A stretch of DNA of 40,661 nucleotides from a virus. Where the stretch lies: positions 1-40,661 of the IMG/VR virus record IMGVR_UViG_3300023106_000007; one strand, written 5' to 3'. The notes below the pieces were generated by a model, which saw only the letters and a program-made list of their open reading frames with translations, was not told the DNA's origin and ran no database searches. Positions 798 to 39,677 of the stretch are shown here, piece by piece. Position 1 is the stretch's first letter. Every line of letters begins with the position of its first letter. The position numbers and the translations under genes are program-made.

Positions 798-1561
798 CAA
801 AGCAGGAGTATATAGCACAATGGAGCAGGTGGCAGCAAGGCATGGAGCGCAAGCACATAGCCGCTATTCGCCGTGCGGTTCGCCTGCAGTTTGAGCAGTT
901 CTTTGCTACGGGGCGTGTGGAAGATATCAGCGCCGAGGGCATGGCGCAGGCATTGCTCGCACTCCGAAAGGATGCAGCGGTAGGATGGGGGCATAAGATA
1001 CTGATTGGCTTACCCCGTGATGCGAAAGGAAGGCATCCAATGGGCTTTAGCCAGCGGGTGTACGACCTCATGCGGGATTACTTCGGCATAGACCTGCTTA
1101 ACGATTCGGAAGAGATAACGGACACTACCAGGGAATATATCCGTATTGCATTAAGCCGCGGTGCATTGAACGGGCTCGGCGTTGATGATGTGGTAAAAGA
1201 GATGCAGGCTTTAGTCAGCGATCTGAGCACCAAGCGGGCACGGGCTATAGCACGCACGGAGACTGTTGGCGCTGCTAATAAAGCTGCCGTAGTTGTTGCT
1301 AATGACAGCGGGCTTGTGCTGAACAAGACATGGCAGGCAGTGCACGATAAGAGAACAAGGCATGACCACGTATTAGCAGACGGCAAGACCATAGCAATGG
1401 ATGAATACTTCAAGATTGGCGGATACGATATGCTGCAGCCAGGAGATCGCGGCGGCAAGGATGGCAAGCCGAAGGTGGCAGCTCGCGAGCTGGTGAACTG
1501 TAGATGTGTTGTTGGGTTTGAAGGTGTAAAGGATGGTAATGGGAGGCTGGTTAGGAGGTAG
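794..1561 (+). CDS. Minor head protein, phage Mu F / SPP1 gp7 family
   Basis: A 255-residue protein whose C-terminal half has the pattern of the SPP1 gp7/Mu gpF head morphogenesis family: an ARTE element (about residues 152-156, in RARAIARTETVGAA), then KTWQAVHDKRTRHDH, a DGK turn, and a closing NCRC-V motif (about 235-239) with paired cysteines. Members of this family are few-copy head proteins bound to the portal, linked to procapsid assembly and DNA delivery. The order portal, small protein, MuF-like protein, protease, capsid is standard. After its stop the strand changes: the next three genes are on the opposite strand and converge on this one, overlapping its last bases. Confidence 0.87.
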   Translation: MTKQEYIAQWSRWQQGMERKHIAAIRRAVRLQFEQFFATGRVEDISAEGMAQALLALRKDAAVGWGHKILIGLPRDAKGRHPMGFSQRVYDLMRDYFGIDLLNDSEEITDTTREYIRIALSRGALNGLGVDDVVKEMQALVSDLSTKRARAIARTETVGAANKAAVVVANDSGLVLNKTWQAVHDKRTRHDHVLADGKTIAMDEYFKIGGYDMLQPGDRGGKDGKPKVAARELVNCRCVVGFEGVKDGNGRLVRR

Positions 1562-1745
1562 GCTTATAGCGAACGACGAAGTAGTGCGCAACCTTGAAGT
1601 TAAGTGTGTTATATAAAAAGAAAACCCAATCGCGAGGAAATGATAACCCCTCATGAATATCTATTTTATTTTCGCCTAAAACATCTGTATAGTAGACAAC
1701 AATGCGCCTGGTGTTGTACTCTAATTTAGCTAATCTTCTGTCCAT
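1551..1745 (-). CDS. Third gene of the reverse-strand cassette, unknown function
   Basis: A 64-residue basic, Tyr/Phe-rich protein beginning MDRRLAKLEY. Its ATG at 1745 starts one base after the TAG stop (1747-1749) of the previous reverse-strand gene, which argues for coupling and for this start. An in-frame ATG at 1757 would add four residues and overlap the upstream gene. The longer open frame on this strand reaching to about 1955 is only the antisense of the preceding gene. The 3' end overlaps the last bases of the convergent minor head gene. No family recognised and no clear membrane segment. Confidence 0.6.
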   Translation of the reverse strand: MDRRLAKLEYNTRRIVVYYTDVLGENKIDIHEGLSFPRDWVFFLYNTLNFKVAHYFVVRYKPTS

Positions 1746-1746
1746 A

Positions 1747-1995
1747 CTATTTCTCATTAAATATTTTAAAGTCAATACCCAGCTTTTCGCAAACCTCCCG
1801 GTGCGATGTGGGGTACCCTGCACGATCAAACTCCTTCTTAAGATCAGCAACCAAGCGGCGCATGTTTGCAATGTCTTTAAGGCGCCGGGCGGCCTTAGCC
1901 TTTTCGTATTGGTATCTTTCATGCCAATCAAGACCCCAAACGATAACGAATGCAAGAATGCTTACTGATAAGTAGATGATGTGGCGGGTGCTCAT
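1747..1995 (-). CDS. Small single-pass membrane protein (reverse-strand cassette)
   Basis: An 82-residue protein with a hydrophobic N-terminal segment (about residues 6-22, YLSVSILAFVIVWGLDW) followed by a charged, basic, probably helical cytoplasmic or periplasmic domain (RYQYEKAKAARRLKDIANMRR). The ATG overlaps the stop of the upstream reverse-strand gene as ATGA (1992-1995). The topology could suit an i-spanin, but the location inside the head operon on the opposite strand is more like a moron, a gene expressed independently of the lytic programme. Superinfection exclusion is one possible role and is speculation. Confidence 0.75.
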   Translation of the reverse strand: MSTRHIIYLSVSILAFVIVWGLDWHERYQYEKAKAARRLKDIANMRRLVADLKKEFDRAGYPTSHREVCEKLGIDFKIFNEK

Positions 1996-2189
1996 TGCCT
2001 TTGATTTACCGGTGATTCGTTAAAAATAATTTCTTTGTCTATGATCAGTGTGCATTTGCGTATTGCCAATTCCCTGCGTATTGCTGCATCTATCAGCTCA
2101 TACATTTTATCGGGGTTCTGTGAGCAATACTGCGCAATAAGCGTATGTGTTACCCTTAAAACAGCAACAGAAGTGAAATCTTTCTCCAT
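1992..2189 (-). CDS. First gene of the reverse-strand cassette, unknown function
   Basis: A 65-residue soluble protein starting MEKDFTSVAV, mostly helical in appearance, with one Cys-containing stretch (IRKCTLIIDKEII). I chose the ATG at 2189. The frame is open upstream to a TTG at 2198, but that TTG lies within the promoter -7 box (2196-2203). The predicted transcription start would fall within a few bases of the ATG, so the mRNA is probably leaderless or nearly so. The stop overlaps the next gene (ATGA). I do not recognise the family. Confidence 0.65.
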   Translation of the reverse strand: MEKDFTSVAVLRVTHTLIAQYCSQNPDKMYELIDAAIRRELAIRKCTLIIDKEIIFNESPVNQRQ

Positions 2190-2967: not shown

Positions 2968-4221
2968 ATGGACAATTTCGATCAAAAGGCGTTTGACGCA
3001 AAATTGGAAGAATTTAAGTCAGCAATACTGACTAAGGCAAAGGAAGATGCAAAGGCAGACTTCACTGAGCAGTTGAGGGCGATTACAGATGCCGCAACAG
3101 AAGCAAAGGATAAGGGTGCAGCGGAATTAAAGCGCATCAGCGATGATCTTGCAACAACTATCAAGGCGTTTGATATGCTGCAAACCCGCATCAAATCAAC
3201 GCCACTTAACGGCGGCGCGCAATCAAAAGGCTTTGAAGCTGAGTTAGGCGAAAAGCTTGCAGCAAAGGCGGCTGACCTTAAGAACTTCAAGACAGAAAAG
3301 AAGGGCATGGCGCCGATTGAAATGGAAAGCAAGGCGGTAGGCAATATGACGAGCGCAGGCAACCTAACGGGTGCTTACTTCGTACCGCCAACAACGGTGC
3401 CGGGCGTAATTCTTAAGCCATACGAGGAAGTGCATTTACGCGATATACTTCCGGTAGGACAAACAACCAGCAATGTAGTGCGCTACATCCGCGATAACGG
3501 CGGCGAAGGCGGGCCGGCTATGGTTGCTGAAGGTGGAACTAAGCCGCAAATTGACCGCGACTTGCAGGTATATGATGCAAACGTAAGGAAGATTGCAACG
3601 TACTTCCGCGTCCCGGAGGAAATGATCGATGATATTCCTTACCTGCAATCATTCCTCAGCCAAATAGGCCTGCAGGAAGTGATGAAGGTGGAGGATGCGC
3701 AAATACTTTACGGTGATGGCACAGGCCAGAACCTAAGCGGTCTTTTCACGAACGCAACAGCATTCGCAGCGGGCACATCAGTAGTAACTGCTCCGAATAA
3801 CTTTGACGTTCTTTTGGCAGCACGCAAGCAGGGTCGTGTAGCTCTTTACAACACCAATGTAGCTCTTGTTTCCCCTATCGACTACTACGACATGATCGAA
3901 AAAAAGGATACTACCAACAACTACATTTTCTTAGGTGGCGGCAACGGTATTGATGTAGCGGGAACGCTTAACTTCCGTGGATTGCGTGTAGTAGAGCATA
4001 CAGCAATCGCAGCAGGCGACTTCCTTGTAATGGATCCGATGGCTGCGGCTATCTTTGACAGGATGGGAACTACTGTAAGGTTCTACGACCAGGATCAGGA
4101 CAACGCTATCAAGAACTTGATTACGATTGTAATTGAGAAGAGATTAGCGCTGCCTATCTACAGGCCGGGTGCTTTGATAAAGGGCACATTCGCTACTGCG
4201 ATTACGGATTTAACTTCGTAA
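2968..4221 (+). CDS. Major capsid protein, HK97 fold
   Basis: A 417-residue HK97-type capsid protein. Residues 1-110 are charged and coiled-coil-like (many Ala, Lys, Glu), as expected for a delta scaffold domain removed by the protease encoded just upstream. The body follows, with a GAYFVPP start, an N-arm/E-loop region (RYIRDNGGEGGPAMVAEGGTKP), DIPYLQSFLSQIGLQEVMKVEDAQILYGDGTGQNLSGL, the typical spine helix and oligomer-loop pattern of this family, and a P-domain near the C-terminus (RFYDQDQDNAIKN). The start has an A-rich upstream sequence, AAAATAAAAATAATGG. A strong intrinsic terminator follows directly. Confidence 0.94.
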   Translation: MDNFDQKAFDAKLEEFKSAILTKAKEDAKADFTEQLRAITDAATEAKDKGAAELKRISDDLATTIKAFDMLQTRIKSTPLNGGAQSKGFEAELGEKLAAKAADLKNFKTEKKGMAPIEMESKAVGNMTSAGNLTGAYFVPPTTVPGVILKPYEEVHLRDILPVGQTTSNVVRYIRDNGGEGGPAMVAEGGTKPQIDRDLQVYDANVRKIATYFRVPEEMIDDIPYLQSFLSQIGLQEVMKVEDAQILYGDGTGQNLSGLFTNATAFAAGTSVVTAPNNFDVLLAARKQGRVALYNTNVALVSPIDYYDMIEKKDTTNNYIFLGGGNGIDVAGTLNFRGLRVVEHTAIAAGDFLVMDPMAAAIFDRMGTTVRFYDQDQDNAIKNLITIVIEKRLALPIYRPGALIKGTFATAITDLTS

Positions 4222-10425: not shown

Positions 10426-12705
10426 ATGCCCAACTACGGCTTAAAATATATTGCGGAATTCGATGTGCCGGTTACCGGTGTAAGGTATAAGGGAGAGTTT
10501 GAGTTCCTTAATTATACAGGCGGCTACTCGGAGATTACATTCGCAGACCCGGGTGTTATACATAAGTGGTCTATAGATGATCCCTTTCCTTCAATAAAGG
10601 GCAGCTCCTGTGATATCTCCATAATAGGATCAAAGACATTCGGCCTTGATAAGTTTTACATCGATTCGGATAACGGCGTTCGCTTTACATTGCGCCGTGA
10701 AGGATTTATCGTTGCACAGCACTTCCTTGTGCAGGATGACTTCTCGGAGGATATAAGCGAGACAGCGCATGTGCTTAACCTTTCATCAACGGATAACCTG
10801 GGCTTGCTGAAGGATGTATCATACACAGATGCGAATGCCCGATACGGAACGCTGGTAGTAAAGAATACGCAGGCAGCTATTGCTCCACCGCCAAATAATT
10901 ACTTCATAGTTATAAGCGATGCAACCTATGTGCCCGTAGTGGGGCAATACTTCCTGTTGGAAGGGACAGGCACAAACCTTGACGGGCAATACTTCAAGAT
11001 CACGATTGTAAATGTTATCGGCTCAGCATTGAATATATATGTAGATCGGCCATTTTCAGCAAACGGCAACTTTTTGACGGCGGTTGTTACATTTATTGAG
11101 GCTGCAGATATTACGCAAAAGATAAGCATGGCATATATATTTGCTACTATCTTTAATGCCACAGGACTGCAGCTTACTTCACGCACATACATGAATATCC
11201 GCCATGAAGGGGTTGCAGATTGGCTTACACTCAATCAAACATATTTGCGGGGAAATGATATTGCCGGGAAGTCCTGCTATGAGGTATTGGATGCTGTCTT
11301 GGGTGGCACTGATAAAGGTCTTGGGGCTACTGTATTTCAGGCGCAGGGGCAATGGCACTTTGTCCGCTGGGCAGAGCTCCGATATCCCGCAGGATCGCCC
11401 GCTGGCAGCCCTGAGCTGATAAATTACGACCAGGGATTTAATATGATCGGCTCTCCCGGTTCTTATTATGATAGCCGTATTGAGATAAGGGATAATGATG
11501 TATTGGATATGCCCCGCAAGACGTTGATCAGGCCATTGCAATACGCAAGGGAGGAGTTTATGTATAGTCAGGCGGAAAGGATAATACCAAATATTAACCT
11601 TGATATCCTGGGCCCGCTGATTGCAACATACACAACGGGCAGCGGTGTTAACCTGCAGACTATTTCAGAATATGTAGCGCCTTATTGGAGCCGTGGCTTT
11701 TGGTGGAATGCAGCCGGCACTGTGCTGGGCAATAATGCCACAACGTTCTTCATCCGGGTTGTAAAGGATTACCACGGTGATGAATCAGACAGGTATATGG
11801 TCATTAAGGGCGCAACGGGCTTTGATGATTCAGCGGCAGTGATCAGCTCCTATATTGAGGCGAATAAAGGTGATCGGGTAAGCGTTTCCATGAATATAAG
11901 GACCAGTAACAGCATACCGGGGCCATACGCCCGCAGCATATACGTAAACAATATCAGCCACTTGCCCATAAATAATACCCGTGCGCCGTGGTATGAGCTG
12001 AAGGACAGCGGGTATTGGGCTGCCGGCAGTGCGCCAAAATTCCAAATTGTTTGGGCGAACGGTGAGAACACCAACCAATGGAAGAGCATTGAGCATACCA
12101 GTAATGAATACCCGACAGACGGGCGCACCTATATTTACCTTCCGCAGGTTTCCAACGGCAGCGGCGGTACCTACTTTGAGACGCATGTAAAGGGCATATC
12201 AGTAAAATACTTCCCCCAGATCGCAGGGCAGCCATCCGTTAAGGGCCATGAGCATATTGATACGGTTCTTACACTCACCGTAAAGAACAACCTTGACAAC
12301 AGCCTGATTATTGATGATACGCAGAGCAATAACATTATGGGCACTATATTTCAAAAGCCGGTTAACAATGAGCTAATCCGTGACAGGACCAGGAATTGGG
12401 AGCGTCGCGGCTTTGAAGGCGAGGGTAAGCGGCTGGGGCAGATCATAACAACGGAGGCTGTGCAGCTACACCGGCAGATCCGAATGAAGATTGAGGCTGA
12501 TATCAACAGGCTTGATCGGGGCACTGTATCAATTTCTCCCTTAAATGCCTTCTTTTATGAAAGATACCCTACATTTTTATTTATCTTTGGATCATTGGAA
12601 TTAAATTACTTCGGTGATCGCGGCAGGTGCACGATATATGAGCTTTATGAGAGTGATGAGGGAGAGGTAATACAGGACTATAAATTTAATTACTTGTATG
12701 AGTAA
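10426..12705 (+). CDS. Large tail-tip / baseplate protein
   Basis: A 759-residue protein directly after the tape measure, where distal-tail and hub proteins are encoded. The N-terminal ~120 residues (AEFDVPVTGVRYKGEFEFLN, ITFADPGVIHKWSIDDPF) are beta-rich and resemble a tail-tip docking domain. The middle (about 380-560) looks like a beta-sandwich with aromatic residues, possibly carbohydrate-binding. The C-terminal part has a run of polar strands and a LLDRGTVSISPLNAFF-like stretch. I infer that it combines distal tail and hub roles, since no separate Dit/Tal pair is visible. Its stop overlaps the next gene by eight bases. Confidence 0.7.
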   Translation: MPNYGLKYIAEFDVPVTGVRYKGEFEFLNYTGGYSEITFADPGVIHKWSIDDPFPSIKGSSCDISIIGSKTFGLDKFYIDSDNGVRFTLRREGFIVAQHFLVQDDFSEDISETAHVLNLSSTDNLGLLKDVSYTDANARYGTLVVKNTQAAIAPPPNNYFIVISDATYVPVVGQYFLLEGTGTNLDGQYFKITIVNVIGSALNIYVDRPFSANGNFLTAVVTFIEAADITQKISMAYIFATIFNATGLQLTSRTYMNIRHEGVADWLTLNQTYLRGNDIAGKSCYEVLDAVLGGTDKGLGATVFQAQGQWHFVRWAELRYPAGSPAGSPELINYDQGFNMIGSPGSYYDSRIEIRDNDVLDMPRKTLIRPLQYAREEFMYSQAERIIPNINLDILGPLIATYTTGSGVNLQTISEYVAPYWSRGFWWNAAGTVLGNNATTFFIRVVKDYHGDESDRYMVIKGATGFDDSAAVISSYIEANKGDRVSVSMNIRTSNSIPGPYARSIYVNNISHLPINNTRAPWYELKDSGYWAAGSAPKFQIVWANGENTNQWKSIEHTSNEYPTDGRTYIYLPQVSNGSGGTYFETHVKGISVKYFPQIAGQPSVKGHEHIDTVLTLTVKNNLDNSLIIDDTQSNNIMGTIFQKPVNNELIRDRTRNWERRGFEGEGKRLGQIITTEAVQLHRQIRMKIEADINRLDRGTVSISPLNAFFYERYPTFLFIFGSLELNYFGDRGRCTIYELYESDEGEVIQDYKFNYLYE

Positions 12706-18959: not shown

Positions 18960-18990
18960 TTTTATTTTTGACCGGTGCTTTGTATGTTTG
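18960..18990 (+). promoter_or_regulatory. Probable Bacteroidota promoter for the hexapeptide-repeat gene
   Basis: TATGTTTG (18983-18990) matches the -7 consensus TAnnTTTG. At the standard 19-base spacing upstream lies TTTT (18960-18963), three of four matches to TTTG. The start codon of the repeat gene follows 26 bases after the box. A terminator precedes it, so the gene appears to be its own transcription unit. Confidence 0.6.
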
Positions 18991-19015
18991 CAATTCACAA
19001 TTAAAAACTTTCAAA

Positions 19016-19642
19016 ATGAAGTACTTCAAATTAACTACGACAAGTAAGGTCAACTTATTTGGCATTACACTTTTTCAATTAGAATTTTCTGTTGACTGCG
19101 TTTGGGGAAAGAAAGGAGATAAAGCGGGGTGGATAGAAAGCGAAGAAACAAAGTTAGGCGATGCTCGGGTGTATGGCGATGCTCTGGTGTTAGGCGATGC
19201 TCAGGTGTATGGCAATGCTCGGGTGTCAGGCAATGCTCTGGTGTCAGGCAATGCTCTGGTGTTAGGCGATGCTCAGGTGTATGGCAATGCTCGGGTGTCA
19301 GGCAATGCTCAGGTGTATGGCAATGCTCGGGTGTCAGGCAATGCTCAGGTGTCAGGCAATGCTCAGGTGTTAGGCGATGCTCTGGTGTTAGGCGATGCTC
19401 AGGTGTATGGCAATGCTCGGGTGTATGGCGGAGAGTGGAAAGAATCCCCATTGCAAATTCAGGGAACTATGCATTTCGTTACCACATCATCCAAAACAGA
19501 ATTAAATATTGGCTGTAAAAAGTTCACATTTAATTTTTGGAAAGAAAACTTTAAGCAAATCGGAGAGGCTGAAGGTTATACCGAAAAGCAGATTACAGAA
19601 TATGGCTTGTATATAGATCTTGCCATATCTTTATTTTCTTAG
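19016..19642 (+). CDS. Hexapeptide-repeat (left-handed beta-helix) protein
   Basis: A 208-residue protein. Residues about 48-137 are 15 tandem copies of G-[D/N]-A-[R/L/Q]-V-[Y/L/S], the hexapeptide pattern of left-handed parallel beta-helices. The flanks are non-repetitive: an N-terminal beta region (MKYFKLTTTSKVNLFGITLF) and a C-terminal helical domain ending in YGLYIDLAISLFS. The chosen ATG has an A-rich leader; an upstream TTG at 18968 lies in the promoter. A terminator on each side and its own promoter suggest a moron-like accessory gene. It lacks visible acyltransferase residues, so I suggest a structural or binding role only. Confidence 0.8.
   Translation: MKYFKLTTTSKVNLFGITLFQLEFSVDCVWGKKGDKAGWIESEETKLGDARVYGDALVLGDAQVYGNARVSGNALVSGNALVLGDAQVYGNARVSGNAQVYGNARVSGNAQVSGNAQVLGDALVLGDAQVYGNARVYGGEWKESPLQIQGTMHFVTTSSKTELNIGCKKFTFNFWKENFKQIGEAEGYTEKQITEYGLYIDLAISLFS
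19157..19426 (+). repeat. Fifteen tandem 18-bp repeats
   Basis: Fifteen uninterrupted units of the form GGCRATGCTCNGGTGTNN (18 bases). Variation occurs at only three places: GAT/AAT, the middle base of CGG/CTG/CAG, and the last codon TAT/TTA/TCA. The unit is two times nine bases and a multiple of three, so changes in copy number keep the frame. Because the repeat stays open in several frames, long shadow ORFs appear on both strands. Confidence 0.95.
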
Positions 19643-19743: not shown

Positions 19744-19851
19744 ATGGCAGACATCACACTACCACGCCGGCTGGGATTAAACAAGGCGCAGTTTCTTTTT
19801 TTATATTTATGCGTTATTGTATTATCGCTCATCTATAAAGATTGGCTGTAA
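19744..19851 (+). CDS. Small membrane peptide upstream of the tmRNA
   Basis: A 35-residue peptide beginning MADITLPRRLGLNKAQ with a single hydrophobic segment (about residues 17-31, FLFLYLCVIVLSLIY) and the end KDWL. A weak promoter may lie directly upstream: TAACTTTA (19732-19739) with TTTT at N19 spacing (19709-19712). The box ends four bases before the ATG, so the message would be leaderless. It ends about 45 bases before the 3' half of the tmRNA and may share its transcript. Function unknown; a small lysis regulator is one possibility. Confidence 0.5.
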   Translation: MADITLPRRLGLNKAQFLFLYLCVIVLSLIYKDWL

Positions 19852-19894
19852 GAGGAAGACCCGGAATATTATGATTAAGTAATTTTAAATAAAT

Positions 19895-19956
19895 GATAAT
19901 TGCCTGACGATTATTAGACGCTTGTTTGGACGGCGGTTCGAGCCCGCCCACCTCCA
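19895..19956 (+). ncRNA. tmRNA acceptor piece (3' half, encoded first)
   Basis: This carries the helix-2 3' strand, the T-arm and the 3' acceptor strand with discriminator A19956. The GGAC immediately before the T-stem and the layout T-stem, 7-base TTCGAGC loop, 7-base acceptor strand align position by position with the end of E. coli tmRNA. The 5' boundary is not visible. The spacer (19957-20005) that would be removed contains a 7-bp hairpin, CGCTAAC (19977-19983) with GTTAGTG (19991-19997). Confidence 0.83.
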
Positions 19957-20005
19957 CAGCTTAATTGCTATTTGAACGCTAACCGGCCGCGTTAGTGCCG
20001 TTTTC

Positions 20006-20125
20006 GGGGGTGCTTTGGTTTTGACAGCAAGTAGTAGATAGTAATAGATTATCAGTAAACAGTAAACGGCAACGTTACACCAATGTTTGCAACTGCTCAT
20101 AGAGCAGCGGCATAACACGAGACTT
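20006..20125 (+). ncRNA. tmRNA coding piece (5' half with tag frame)
   Basis: It starts with the 5' acceptor strand GGGGGTG and the D-loop region. The tag frame opens at a GGC resume codon (20068) after two AGTAAAC copies (20054-20067) and reads GNVTPMFATAHRAAA before TAA (20113-20115). The Ala-rich end resembles known proteolysis tags. Upstream bases CAGTAAAC somewhat resemble the AAUAGUC context before the E. coli resume codon. No T-arm follows; the transcript instead meets a terminator hairpin. Confidence 0.8.
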
Positions 20126-20154
20126 GCCCCCTGCGACAATGGGGGCTACTTTTT
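20126..20154 (+). terminator. Intrinsic terminator after the tmRNA tag
   Basis: A perfect stem, GCCCCC (20126-20131) with GGGGGC (20141-20146), nine-base loop, then TACTTTTT. It sits 10 bases after the tag stop codon and likely ends the tmRNA precursor; part of the stem may also belong to the mature coding piece. Confidence 0.8.
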
Positions 20155-20668: not shown

Positions 20669-21178
20669 ATGACCAAAAAAGACTTCGTTGCAAAGCTTTA
20701 CCCGTATGCGCTGCAATGCCAAAAGGAAACGGGGATACATCCGCTTGCGATACTTGCGCAGGCTGCCCTGGAATCGGGCTGGGGAGAGGTATCGCCGGGC
20801 AATATGTACTTCGGCATAAAGGACACAGACGGCGTAAATGGTAATGAGCAATTATTGACCACTACAGAGTATAGCAGCCGGGCCAATTATCCTTTTCCTA
20901 ATATAATCAGCATTACACCTGTAATGATTGGTAATAAGAAGATGTTTAAGTACAAGATAAAGGGCTACTTCCGCAAGTATAAAACGCCTGCGGAAAGCTT
21001 TATTGATCATGGTAAATTCTTTATGCAGAACGGTCGATATGCCGCTGCTATGAAGGTTGCAGGCGATTACAATAAATTCTTTGATGCTATTGCGGCTGCA
21101 GGCTATGCCACAGCCCCAACTTACGCCAAGGATCTGAAAGATATTGCTGACGGGCTTGTAAAGTACGTGCCCGCATAA
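20669..21178 (+). CDS. Endolysin, glucosaminidase (FlgJ/LytG-like) family
   Basis: A 169-residue peptidoglycan hydrolase of the beta-N-acetylglucosaminidase type. The catalytic glutamate is in AQAALESGWGE (E35), followed by NMYFGIK and the C-terminal AGYATAPTYAKDLKDI, typical for the family. No signal peptide is present, so release through the holin pore is expected. It ends an operon of three genes and is followed by a strong terminator. Confidence 0.9.
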   Translation: MTKKDFVAKLYPYALQCQKETGIHPLAILAQAALESGWGEVSPGNMYFGIKDTDGVNGNEQLLTTTEYSSRANYPFPNIISITPVMIGNKKMFKYKIKGYFRKYKTPAESFIDHGKFFMQNGRYAAAMKVAGDYNKFFDAIAAAGYATAPTYAKDLKDIADGLVKYVPA

Positions 21179-37810: not shown

Positions 37811-38386
37811 ATGGCAAAAGGAGCAAAAGTTACAGATGGCACCACAGAGCAGCAAAAGCTGTTTGCGTACGCTTACTTCCAAAATGGGGGCAATGCTACA
37901 CAAGCGGCGATAGAGGCCGGATATTCAAAGAAAACAGCCACTTCGTGCGGTTCCCGGTTGTTAACGTATGAAAATGTTTCAGCATTAATAAAATCACTTA
38001 ACGATCAGGTAAAAGAGCGTGTAATAGTTACTAAGGAGCAGATAGCTAAAGAGTTAATGAAGGTAGGATTTGCTGACTTGCGAAAGGCTTACACGGTAGA
38101 CGGTGCATTGAAGGCAATCCGTGATCTGGATGATGATATTGCAGGGGCTATTACGGGTGTAAAGGTCATGGAAGAATTTGAAGGCAGCGGAGAAGATAGG
38201 CTGAAGATCGGTGAAACGGTTGAAGTAAAATTCAACCCGAAGATACCGGCTCTTGCAGAGCTAAATAAGATGTTTGGGTATTATGCGCCTACCTTGAATG
38301 CGCAAACAGATAAAGAGGGCAACGATGTAATTTGGAACGAACAAAAAACCTATGCGGCTAAACCTGAAGCAGACGCTGGCGCTTGA
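37811..38386 (+). CDS. Terminase small subunit
   Basis: A 191-residue protein of the terminase_2 family: an N-terminal HTH region with QQKLFAYAYFQNGGNATQAA then IEAGYSKKTATSCGSRLL (about residues 16-54), helices around KEQIAKELMKVGFADLRK, and the C-terminal FNPKIPALAELNKMFGYYAP. It recognises phage DNA and starts packaging. It overlaps the large subunit gene by 35 bases. Confidence 0.9.
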   Translation: MAKGAKVTDGTTEQQKLFAYAYFQNGGNATQAAIEAGYSKKTATSCGSRLLTYENVSALIKSLNDQVKERVIVTKEQIAKELMKVGFADLRKAYTVDGALKAIRDLDDDIAGAITGVKVMEEFEGSGEDRLKIGETVEVKFNPKIPALAELNKMFGYYAPTLNAQTDKEGNDVIWNEQKTYAAKPEADAGA

Positions 38387-39677
38387 TTACCTTGAGGATA
38401 ACACCACAAGTGAATTGGAGTATGGCGGTGCTGCCGGTGGCGGCAAGTCGGTGCTTGGGTGCTATTGGCAGATAAAGCGCAGGCTAAAGTACCCCGGAAC
38501 ACGGGGATTAATTGGCAGGGCATCGCTCAAGACCCTCAAGGAAACCACTCTAAACTCCTTCTTTGAGGTGGCACGGCTGCAGGGATTAAAGGCAGGAATT
38601 CACTTTAAGTATAATCAGCAATCAAACATTATTAATTTTTCCAATGGATCAATAATATTCCTGAAAGATTTATTTCAATACCCGGCCGATCCAAACTTTG
38701 ATGAGTTGGGATCTTTGGAGATTACAGATGCTTTCATTGATGAGAATAACCAGATCGTAGAAAAGGCCTGGAATATTGTAAAAAGCCGTATTAGGTACAA
38801 GCTTGATGAGTTTGGATTGATACCTAAGATGATGGGCAGTTGCAACCCGAGCAAGGGATTTATTTACACAAGGTTTTATAAGCCATCAAAAGATGGCACA
38901 TTACCCGCTGATCGTAAATTTATACAGGCGCTTGTAACGGATAACCCGGATATTTCTATTCATTACCGAAACAACCTGCTTACCCTTGATGAAACGAGCA
39001 AGCAGCGTTTGCTTTATGGCAATTGGGAATACGACGATGACAAATCCGTCTTAATGGGTTACGACAAAATAATAGATTGTTTCACCAATGATTTCATACC
39101 GCCGGGCACCAATTACATCACTGCGGATATTGCCCGATTCGGCAAGGATACAACCGTGATCGGATTATGGTCCGGGTATCGGGTAAAGCTATACCAGCAC
39201 AAGGGATTAAGCGTTACGGAAAGCGCAGCCGAGATACGCAGGATTGCGGACAGTAATGGCATCCCGAACAGCAGCATTATTGTCGATGAGGATGGTATCG
39301 GCGGCGGCGTGGTTGATATACTTCGCTGCAAGGGCTTCGTAAACGGCGGGATGCCGCTACCCGAGCCGGAAAGCCCGAAGATCGGAGCTCCGGATAAGCC
39401 CAACTACCTAAACCTTAAAAGCCAATGCTACTACCGATTGGCAGACCGCGTGAACACATCAGGTTTGTACATCGATTGTACTGACCCAACTATTAAGGAA
39501 ATGATCATTGCGGAAATGGAGCAGGTGAAGCAGCACAACATGGACAAAGACGGTAAAAAGCAGGTGGTGCCGAAGGATAAGGTTAAGGAATTAATAGGCC
39601 GCTCACCCGATTTCTCAGACACGCTGATGATGCGGGAATGGTTTGAGCTTAAGCCTAAATATGTCTACATTGGGTAA
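38352..39677 (+). CDS. Terminase large subunit
   Basis: A 441-residue packaging motor. ATPase: Walker A GGAAGGGKS (25-33) and Walker B DAFIDEN (126-132). Nuclease: ADIARFGKD (D259, D266) and IVDEDGIGGGVVD (311-322). It moves DNA into the procapsid and cuts it. The start inside terS is typical for coupled terminase genes. The portal follows after 32 bases. Confidence 0.93.
   Translation: MRLNLKQTLALDYLEDNTTSELEYGGAAGGGKSVLGCYWQIKRRLKYPGTRGLIGRASLKTLKETTLNSFFEVARLQGLKAGIHFKYNQQSNIINFSNGSIIFLKDLFQYPADPNFDELGSLEITDAFIDENNQIVEKAWNIVKSRIRYKLDEFGLIPKMMGSCNPSKGFIYTRFYKPSKDGTLPADRKFIQALVTDNPDISIHYRNNLLTLDETSKQRLLYGNWEYDDDKSVLMGYDKIIDCFTNDFIPPGTNYITADIARFGKDTTVIGLWSGYRVKLYQHKGLSVTESAAEIRRIADSNGIPNSSIIVDEDGIGGGVVDILRCKGFVNGGMPLPEPESPKIGAPDKPNYLNLKSQCYYRLADRVNTSGLYIDCTDPTIKEMIIAEMEQVKQHNMDKDGKKQVVPKDKVKELIGRSPDFSDTLMMREWFELKPKYVYIG

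Follow-up and report, generated by a model that had tools for sequence, protein, structure and literature searches.

The window analysed here, a stretch of 40,661 nucleotides (IMG/VR virus record IMGVR_UViG_3300023106_000007), carries on its plus strand a tmRNA gene in permuted order, which adjoins a lysis gene and lies within the late gene block. RF04321 (tmRNA_permuted) is the sole Rfam family above cut-off across the whole window; it matches positions 19895-20115 over the full model length with 58.0 bits vs. a cut-off of 47 (E 7.2e-9). The one-piece tmRNA model RF00023 gave no match at cut-off in the window, and the subclass models for alphaproteobacterial, betaproteobacterial and cyanobacterial tmRNAs (RF01849-51) stayed below cut-off, the best being a partial match to beta_tmRNA with 38.9 bits vs. 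84. A first-pass annotation of the DNA had proposed a permuted tmRNA at 19895-20146 and had named covariance models and ARAGORN as checks. Order and coordinates proved right and RF04321 lies above cut-off, but ARAGORN calls no tmRNA in the window.

The T-arm and the 3' half of the acceptor are encoded ahead of the acceptor 5' half and the tag (Table 1). By direct reading, the acceptor strands GGGGGTG and CACCTCC form seven of seven pairs including the alanine identity pair G3-U70, exactly as annotated. CCA is absent from the gene, the genome reading CAG after position 19956. All three blocks that had been proposed to join the two halves are present, albeit with slightly shifted edges. Between the end of P2 (20054) and the resume codon (20068) lie 13 nt. 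The Bacteroidota promoter motif TAnnTTTG was not found on the plus strand close upstream of the gene and is not enriched window-wide.

Table 1. Features of the tmRNA gene and of two phage genes in the window
Feature	Position	Strand	Basis or remark
Acceptor RNA piece (predicted), 5' part	19894-19926	+	Cofold; covariation in 23 members
Joining helix P2, block 1	19918-19926 with 20026-20035	+	Cofold
Joining helix P2, block 2	19910-19915 with 20037-20042	+	Cofold
Joining helix P2, block 3	19894-19901 with 20047-20054	+	Cofold
GGAC and T-arm	19928-19948	+	RF04321 alignment; T-stem covaries at two positions
T-arm	19932-19948	+	Stem 19932-19936/19944-19948, loop TTCGAGC 19937-19943
Acceptor 3' strand CACCTCC, discriminator A	19949-19955, 19956	+	Pairs 7/7 in 23/23 members
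Intervening sequence	19957-20005	+	Position relative to RF04321; removal predicted
Acceptor 5' strand GGGGGTG	20006-20012	+	G3 pairs with U70
D-arm-like stretch CTTTGGTTTTGAC	20013-20025	+	RF04321 alignment; motif GGTTTTGACAGC also in Bacteroidia one-piece tmRNAs
Joining helix P2, 3' strand	20026-20054	+	Cofold
Tag frame, resume codon GGC, peptide GNVTPMFATAHRAAA, then TAA	20068-20115	+	Conserved in relatives
Hairpin GCCCCC-TGCGACAAT-GGGGGC and T-run	20126-20154	+	Predicted 3' end/terminator of coding piece
Endolysin (glucosaminidase)	20669-21178	+	Just downstream of tmRNA
Terminase large subunit	38352-39677	+	Main host-group evidence

The phage and its host group

Matches to the large terminase come from 13 phage records: two are unnamed faecal records, and every record for which a host or genus is named belongs to a Bacteroidota phage. 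Its best match is Flavobacterium phage 11b (55%), whose order of head genes is also found in the window, and the helicase is most similar to those of Flavobacterium columnare phages (56%). Among bacterial genomes, the closest terminase is located in a Taibaiella MAG. Judged from these genes, the window phage, a siphovirus, infects Bacteroidota, which bears out the earlier assignment of the tmRNA to a phage of Bacteroidota type. The contig starts inside the portal gene (1-591) and ends after the terminase gene; it is probably an almost complete genome, opened inside that portal gene.

INPHARED phages gave no nucleotide match to the window region, and no relatives were found for the tail protein at 10426-12705. 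The relatives of the endolysin, L002 and L003, have no tmRNA. No tmRNA above cut-off was present in 50 IMG/VR contigs, many of them fragments and most with related terminases; the tmRNA is thus not conserved together with the window's terminase. One terminase of Bacteroidota-phage type is found in a MAG named Nanoarchaeota (L112, JAHIWS010000020.1), which is probably misbinned.

Just upstream of the tmRNA, ORF 18968-19642 encodes a YdcK-type beta-solenoid repeat protein and includes an 18-base tandem repeat of about 15 copies (19153-19430). Between this gene and the tmRNA, a frame at 19744-19851 encodes a peptide of 35 residues with one hydrophobic segment, possibly a membrane peptide of the lysis block.

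A family of permuted tmRNA genes

The window gene belongs to a family of 23 distinct members. Its 22 relatives are found in Chryseobacterium phage MA9V-3, seven crAss-like phages, IMG/VR contigs and a prophage (L179). Members were obtained by pattern scans of IMG/VR, by a BLAST match to MA9V-3 and by comparing the MA9V-3 gene with crAss-like phages; 13 of the 23 came from patterns in which some letters of the acceptor and D-arm are fixed, and the first IMG/VR pattern, which required TTTTGACAG, returned none. At least seven members are crAss-like phages of the Suoliviridae (cr114_1, cr10_1, cr50_1, cr53_1, cr60_1, cr125_1, cr273_1), four of them above and three below the RF04321 cut-off. The view of the window gene as a unique case is not supported, since the permuted form occurs in the Chryseobacterium phage, these crAss-like phages, a prophage and many metagenomic phages. 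ARAGORN calls a permuted tmRNA in 17 members and misses six, the window among them, so that standard annotation overlooks part of the family. With RF00023, L200 and L217 score only 36 and 33 bits. The host group was checked for part of the IMG/VR members; the contigs of L208 and L217 have protein matches to Bacteroidota phages only. Permuted genes at L004-L012, L207, L209, L215 and L216 are of proteobacterial type, with tags of AND/ANS type where readable, and were placed outside the family.

The tmRNA most closely related to that of the window is L203 (IMGVR_UViG_3300049491_000813, 842-2027, minus strand), which an integrase gene follows at a distance of about 0.1 kb. The two tmRNAs are closely similar while the terminases of the two phages are unrelated, which indicates that the gene moves between phages.

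The seven acceptor pairs and G3-U70 are present in all 23 members. At acceptor pairs 4, 5, 6 and 7 both sides change in some members, and pair 5, left free in the search patterns, occurs as four pair types. Over acceptor, T-stem and first joining block we counted 63 double-change cells vs. a shuffled mean of 22.8 (0/500), with slid controls reaching at most 24. On a MAFFT alignment, register differences kept RNAalifold from finding the joining helix, which was therefore examined by fixed-register and re-pairing tests. The fixed-register test gave p 2e-5. Cognate halves pair over the whole joining region with a mean of -17.6 kcal/mol vs. -12.1 kcal/mol for re-paired halves (p about 1e-5); cognate halves were likewise favoured in a 16-member set, and a control region gave p 0.07. 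The strong evidence for the joining helix comes from the 22 relatives, the window alone being weakly better than shuffled sequence (p 0.04). Covariation in related phages, which the first-pass annotation had named as a check, was accordingly found, and includes the helices between the halves.

These helices also bear on another reading, in which the gene is a functionless fragment of a host tmRNA gene left behind at an integration site. tmRNA genes are common attachment sites, and that of L203 is directly followed by an integrase gene. The covariation among members already contradicts such a remnant: lytic, temperate and crAss-like phages have all retained the two halves, the joining helix, the tag and the terminator, with covariation. 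Moreover, the order differs from that of the host gene, and the surroundings of the copy in the window showed no integrase. We consider a remnant highly improbable.

All but one of the 23 members retain the tag frame and the conserved resume context. Among ten members whose tags have 15 residues, frame 0 is free of stops, whereas frames 1 and 2 each contain stops in eight of the ten; the mean BLOSUM score per codon is 1.96 in frame 0 vs. 0.64 and 0.53 in the other frames. For most members, ARAGORN independently reports an identical or nearly identical tag. GKVIxMFxxPxRxxA is the approximate tag consensus of one subgroup and GNxxxVxDYTxxAA that of the crAss-like phages, and the MA9V-3 tag ends in GNVIDINKYVAKLEVAA. 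Like Bacteroidia host tags, which have nine residues (GxxxYALAA/YAMAA), family tags begin with glycine. A hairpin is found at the place of the window hairpin in most relatives.

In the family, 57-65 nt separate the 5' end from the resume codon, vs. 84-90 nt in permuted phage genes of proteobacterial type and alphaproteobacterial genes and about 85-102 nt in Bacteroidota one-piece genes. The short offset, and the short gap after P2, leave no room for pseudoknot PK1, a typical tmRNA feature between P2 and the resume codon that is absent at this place in the window.

The intervening sequence measures 40-213 nt among relatives. In L210 (IMGVR_UViG_3300029319_000114, 3480-3844, minus strand) it contains a complete tRNA-Ala(TGC) gene at 3674-3748, and in crAss-like cr114_1 (L271, 564-1006) a tRNA-His gene at 665-737. 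One case of a tRNA gene inside the intervening sequence of a permuted tmRNA has been described, and was reported as unique (PMC11915505). In crAss-like phages, RNAs of the RAGATH-9, RAGATH-20 and RAGATH-22 types are found immediately upstream of the tmRNA or touching it (L271 141-308, L280 409-577, L276 254-355, L273 1-123).

Origin of the permutation

One-piece tmRNA is normal in Bacteroidota, as had been assumed: it was above cut-off in 60 of 61 sampled genomes. RF04321 was searched in partly overlapping samples of 395, 396 and 398 genomes and in 20 named genomes. Among these approximately 1,200 Bacteroidota genomes no permuted host tmRNA gene was found, and a single genome was positive above cut-off. 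Its copy, L179, is carried by a prophage that also encodes DNA polymerase A, helicase, primase and integrase; the bacterium has a one-piece tmRNA of its own in that genome. In the Bacteroidota genomes L178 and L180-L182, RF04321 matched weakly; these are cross-hits to normal one-piece tmRNA genes.

The phage family has GGTTTTGACAGC, TTGGAC and the glycine resume codon in common with one-piece genes of Bacteroidia. In a tree of 63 columns, calculated without cyanobacterial genes, the family groups with Bacteroidia one-piece genes (support 90/90). A clade with proteobacterial permuted genes was rejected by AU test on 60-63 columns (p 0.018), also when only members not found by the TTTTGAC pattern were used and the resume codon was dropped (p 0.017), but p rose to 0.085 once long branches were removed. 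A clade with Bacteroidia was not rejected. The independent permutation put forward in the first-pass annotation is hence backed by tree and AU tests, although with few columns and with a dependence on long branches; on this sequence evidence, independent permutation of a Bacteroidia gene is favoured, not proven.

The same molecule might instead descend from an alphaproteobacterial, betaproteobacterial or cyanobacterial permuted tmRNA, or from that of their phages, and have been adapted to Bacteroidota. Permuted tmRNAs are common in phages of these groups (PMC9004378), our tree does not include cyanobacterial sequences, and the conserved 57 nt are equally identical to Bacteroidia and proteobacterial sources, pairwise identity being for this reason uninformative as a test of origin. 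Against such a descent stand the tree and the AU tests, the glycine resume codon and the GGTTTTGACAGC/TTGGAC context, which match Bacteroidia hosts, and the clade-specific models including beta_tmRNA, which score below cut-off. We therefore regard it as possible, though rather unlikely.

We lean slightly towards a further circular permutation, in which a Bacteroidia one-piece gene was captured by a phage and a compact form without PK1 then spread among Bacteroidota phages that are not related to each other (crAss-like, siphovirus, temperate). The captured gene would have lost its PK1 segment, and its permutation would most likely be independent of the alphaproteobacterial, betaproteobacterial and cyanobacterial ones. 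If this is true, infected cells hold two tmRNA systems that differ in architecture and tags.

Proposed function and known systems

The gene would give rise to a single transcript, from which, as in known two-piece tmRNAs, an RNase P cut at 20006 and 3' trimming after 19956 would remove the intervening sequence. CCA would then be added to the predicted acceptor piece, and the host alanyl-tRNA synthetase would charge the phage tmRNA. SmpB is not encoded in the window contig; the two paired RNAs would be delivered by host SmpB to ribosomes that stall during infection, and the phage tag would be added to the stalled peptide, which host Clp protease would then degrade. A 'ClpX' annotated near the MA9V-3 tmRNA is by Pfam only a general AAA ATPase, and a scenario involving a phage ClpX was dropped for this reason. 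By tagging and rescue of this kind, the phage gene may take over from or replace host tmRNA, to the presumed benefit of the phage.

Alternatively, the phage RNA may act as a decoy that captures SmpB, alanyl-tRNA synthetase or both and so blocks trans-translation by the host. Such a function has an analogue in mycobacteriophage DS6A, whose tmRNA relative consists of the tRNA-like domain only and is reported to inhibit tmRNA (PMC11915505, PMC4131195). A decoy has no need, however, for the tag frame conserved at the protein level and the resume context kept throughout nearly the whole family, and we consider it improbable. Taken jointly with the working and origin proposed above, the window gene is very likely a two-piece tmRNA of a Bacteroidota siphovirus and a member of a compact family of permuted phage tmRNAs.

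So far, two-piece tmRNA has been associated with three bacterial lineages and with mitochondria. A phage lineage in a one-piece phylum would show the permutation arising and spreading in viruses, and the family would provide a natural minimal tmRNA without PK1. It would also allow one to test why phages, among them the abundant crAss-like phages of the gut, carry their own ribosome rescue and a different degradation tag.

RF04321 is a 2025 model merged from alphaproteobacterial, betaproteobacterial and cyanobacterial two-piece tmRNAs and covers the tRNA domain only (PMC11915505). The family resembles it in gene order, tRNA-like domain, G3-U70, tag frame and a score above the curated cut-off. 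Its seed, however, comes from these three bacterial groups only, whereas the family has tags starting with glycine, a short resume offset and no room for PK1. Permuted tmRNAs are known from marine phages, among them Melnitz and Pelagibacter phage Mosig (PMC9004378). These are phage-borne and permuted as well, but alphaproteobacterial in sequence, where two-piece tmRNA is normal, while the Bacteroidota hosts of our family carry one-piece tmRNA.

Bacteroidia one-piece tmRNA has the glycine resume codon and D-arm context in common with the family; it differs by its length of 360-400 nt, the longer stretch before the resume codon and the nine-residue tag ending in YALAA/YAMAA. Cellulophaga phages phi38:1 and Calle_1 infect the same host group and have one-piece tmRNA instead (L279/L274, 272-633, RF00023 about 87 bits); their ARAGORN tag is odd (AQIEANMEAVNAILNLEVAVGV), and the phi38:1 copy is unannotated. 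A further unannotated one-piece tmRNA is found in Phage Phass-1 of the code 15 clade (L278, 208-646, RF00023 77.9 bits).

The tmRNAs of MA9V-3 and the crAss-like Suoliviridae belong to the family described here; several bear the GenBank label 'SsrA', and most crAss-like ones are already labelled tmRNA. The MA9V-3 paper lists a tmRNA and does not mention the permuted form (PMC13120357), and we found no description of permuted or two-piece tmRNA in Bacteroidota or crAss-like phages, singly or as a group, in the open-licence literature. Permuted tmRNAs of phages are already known; the window gene is a genuine one and leads to a coherent, under-described family in Bacteroidota phages.
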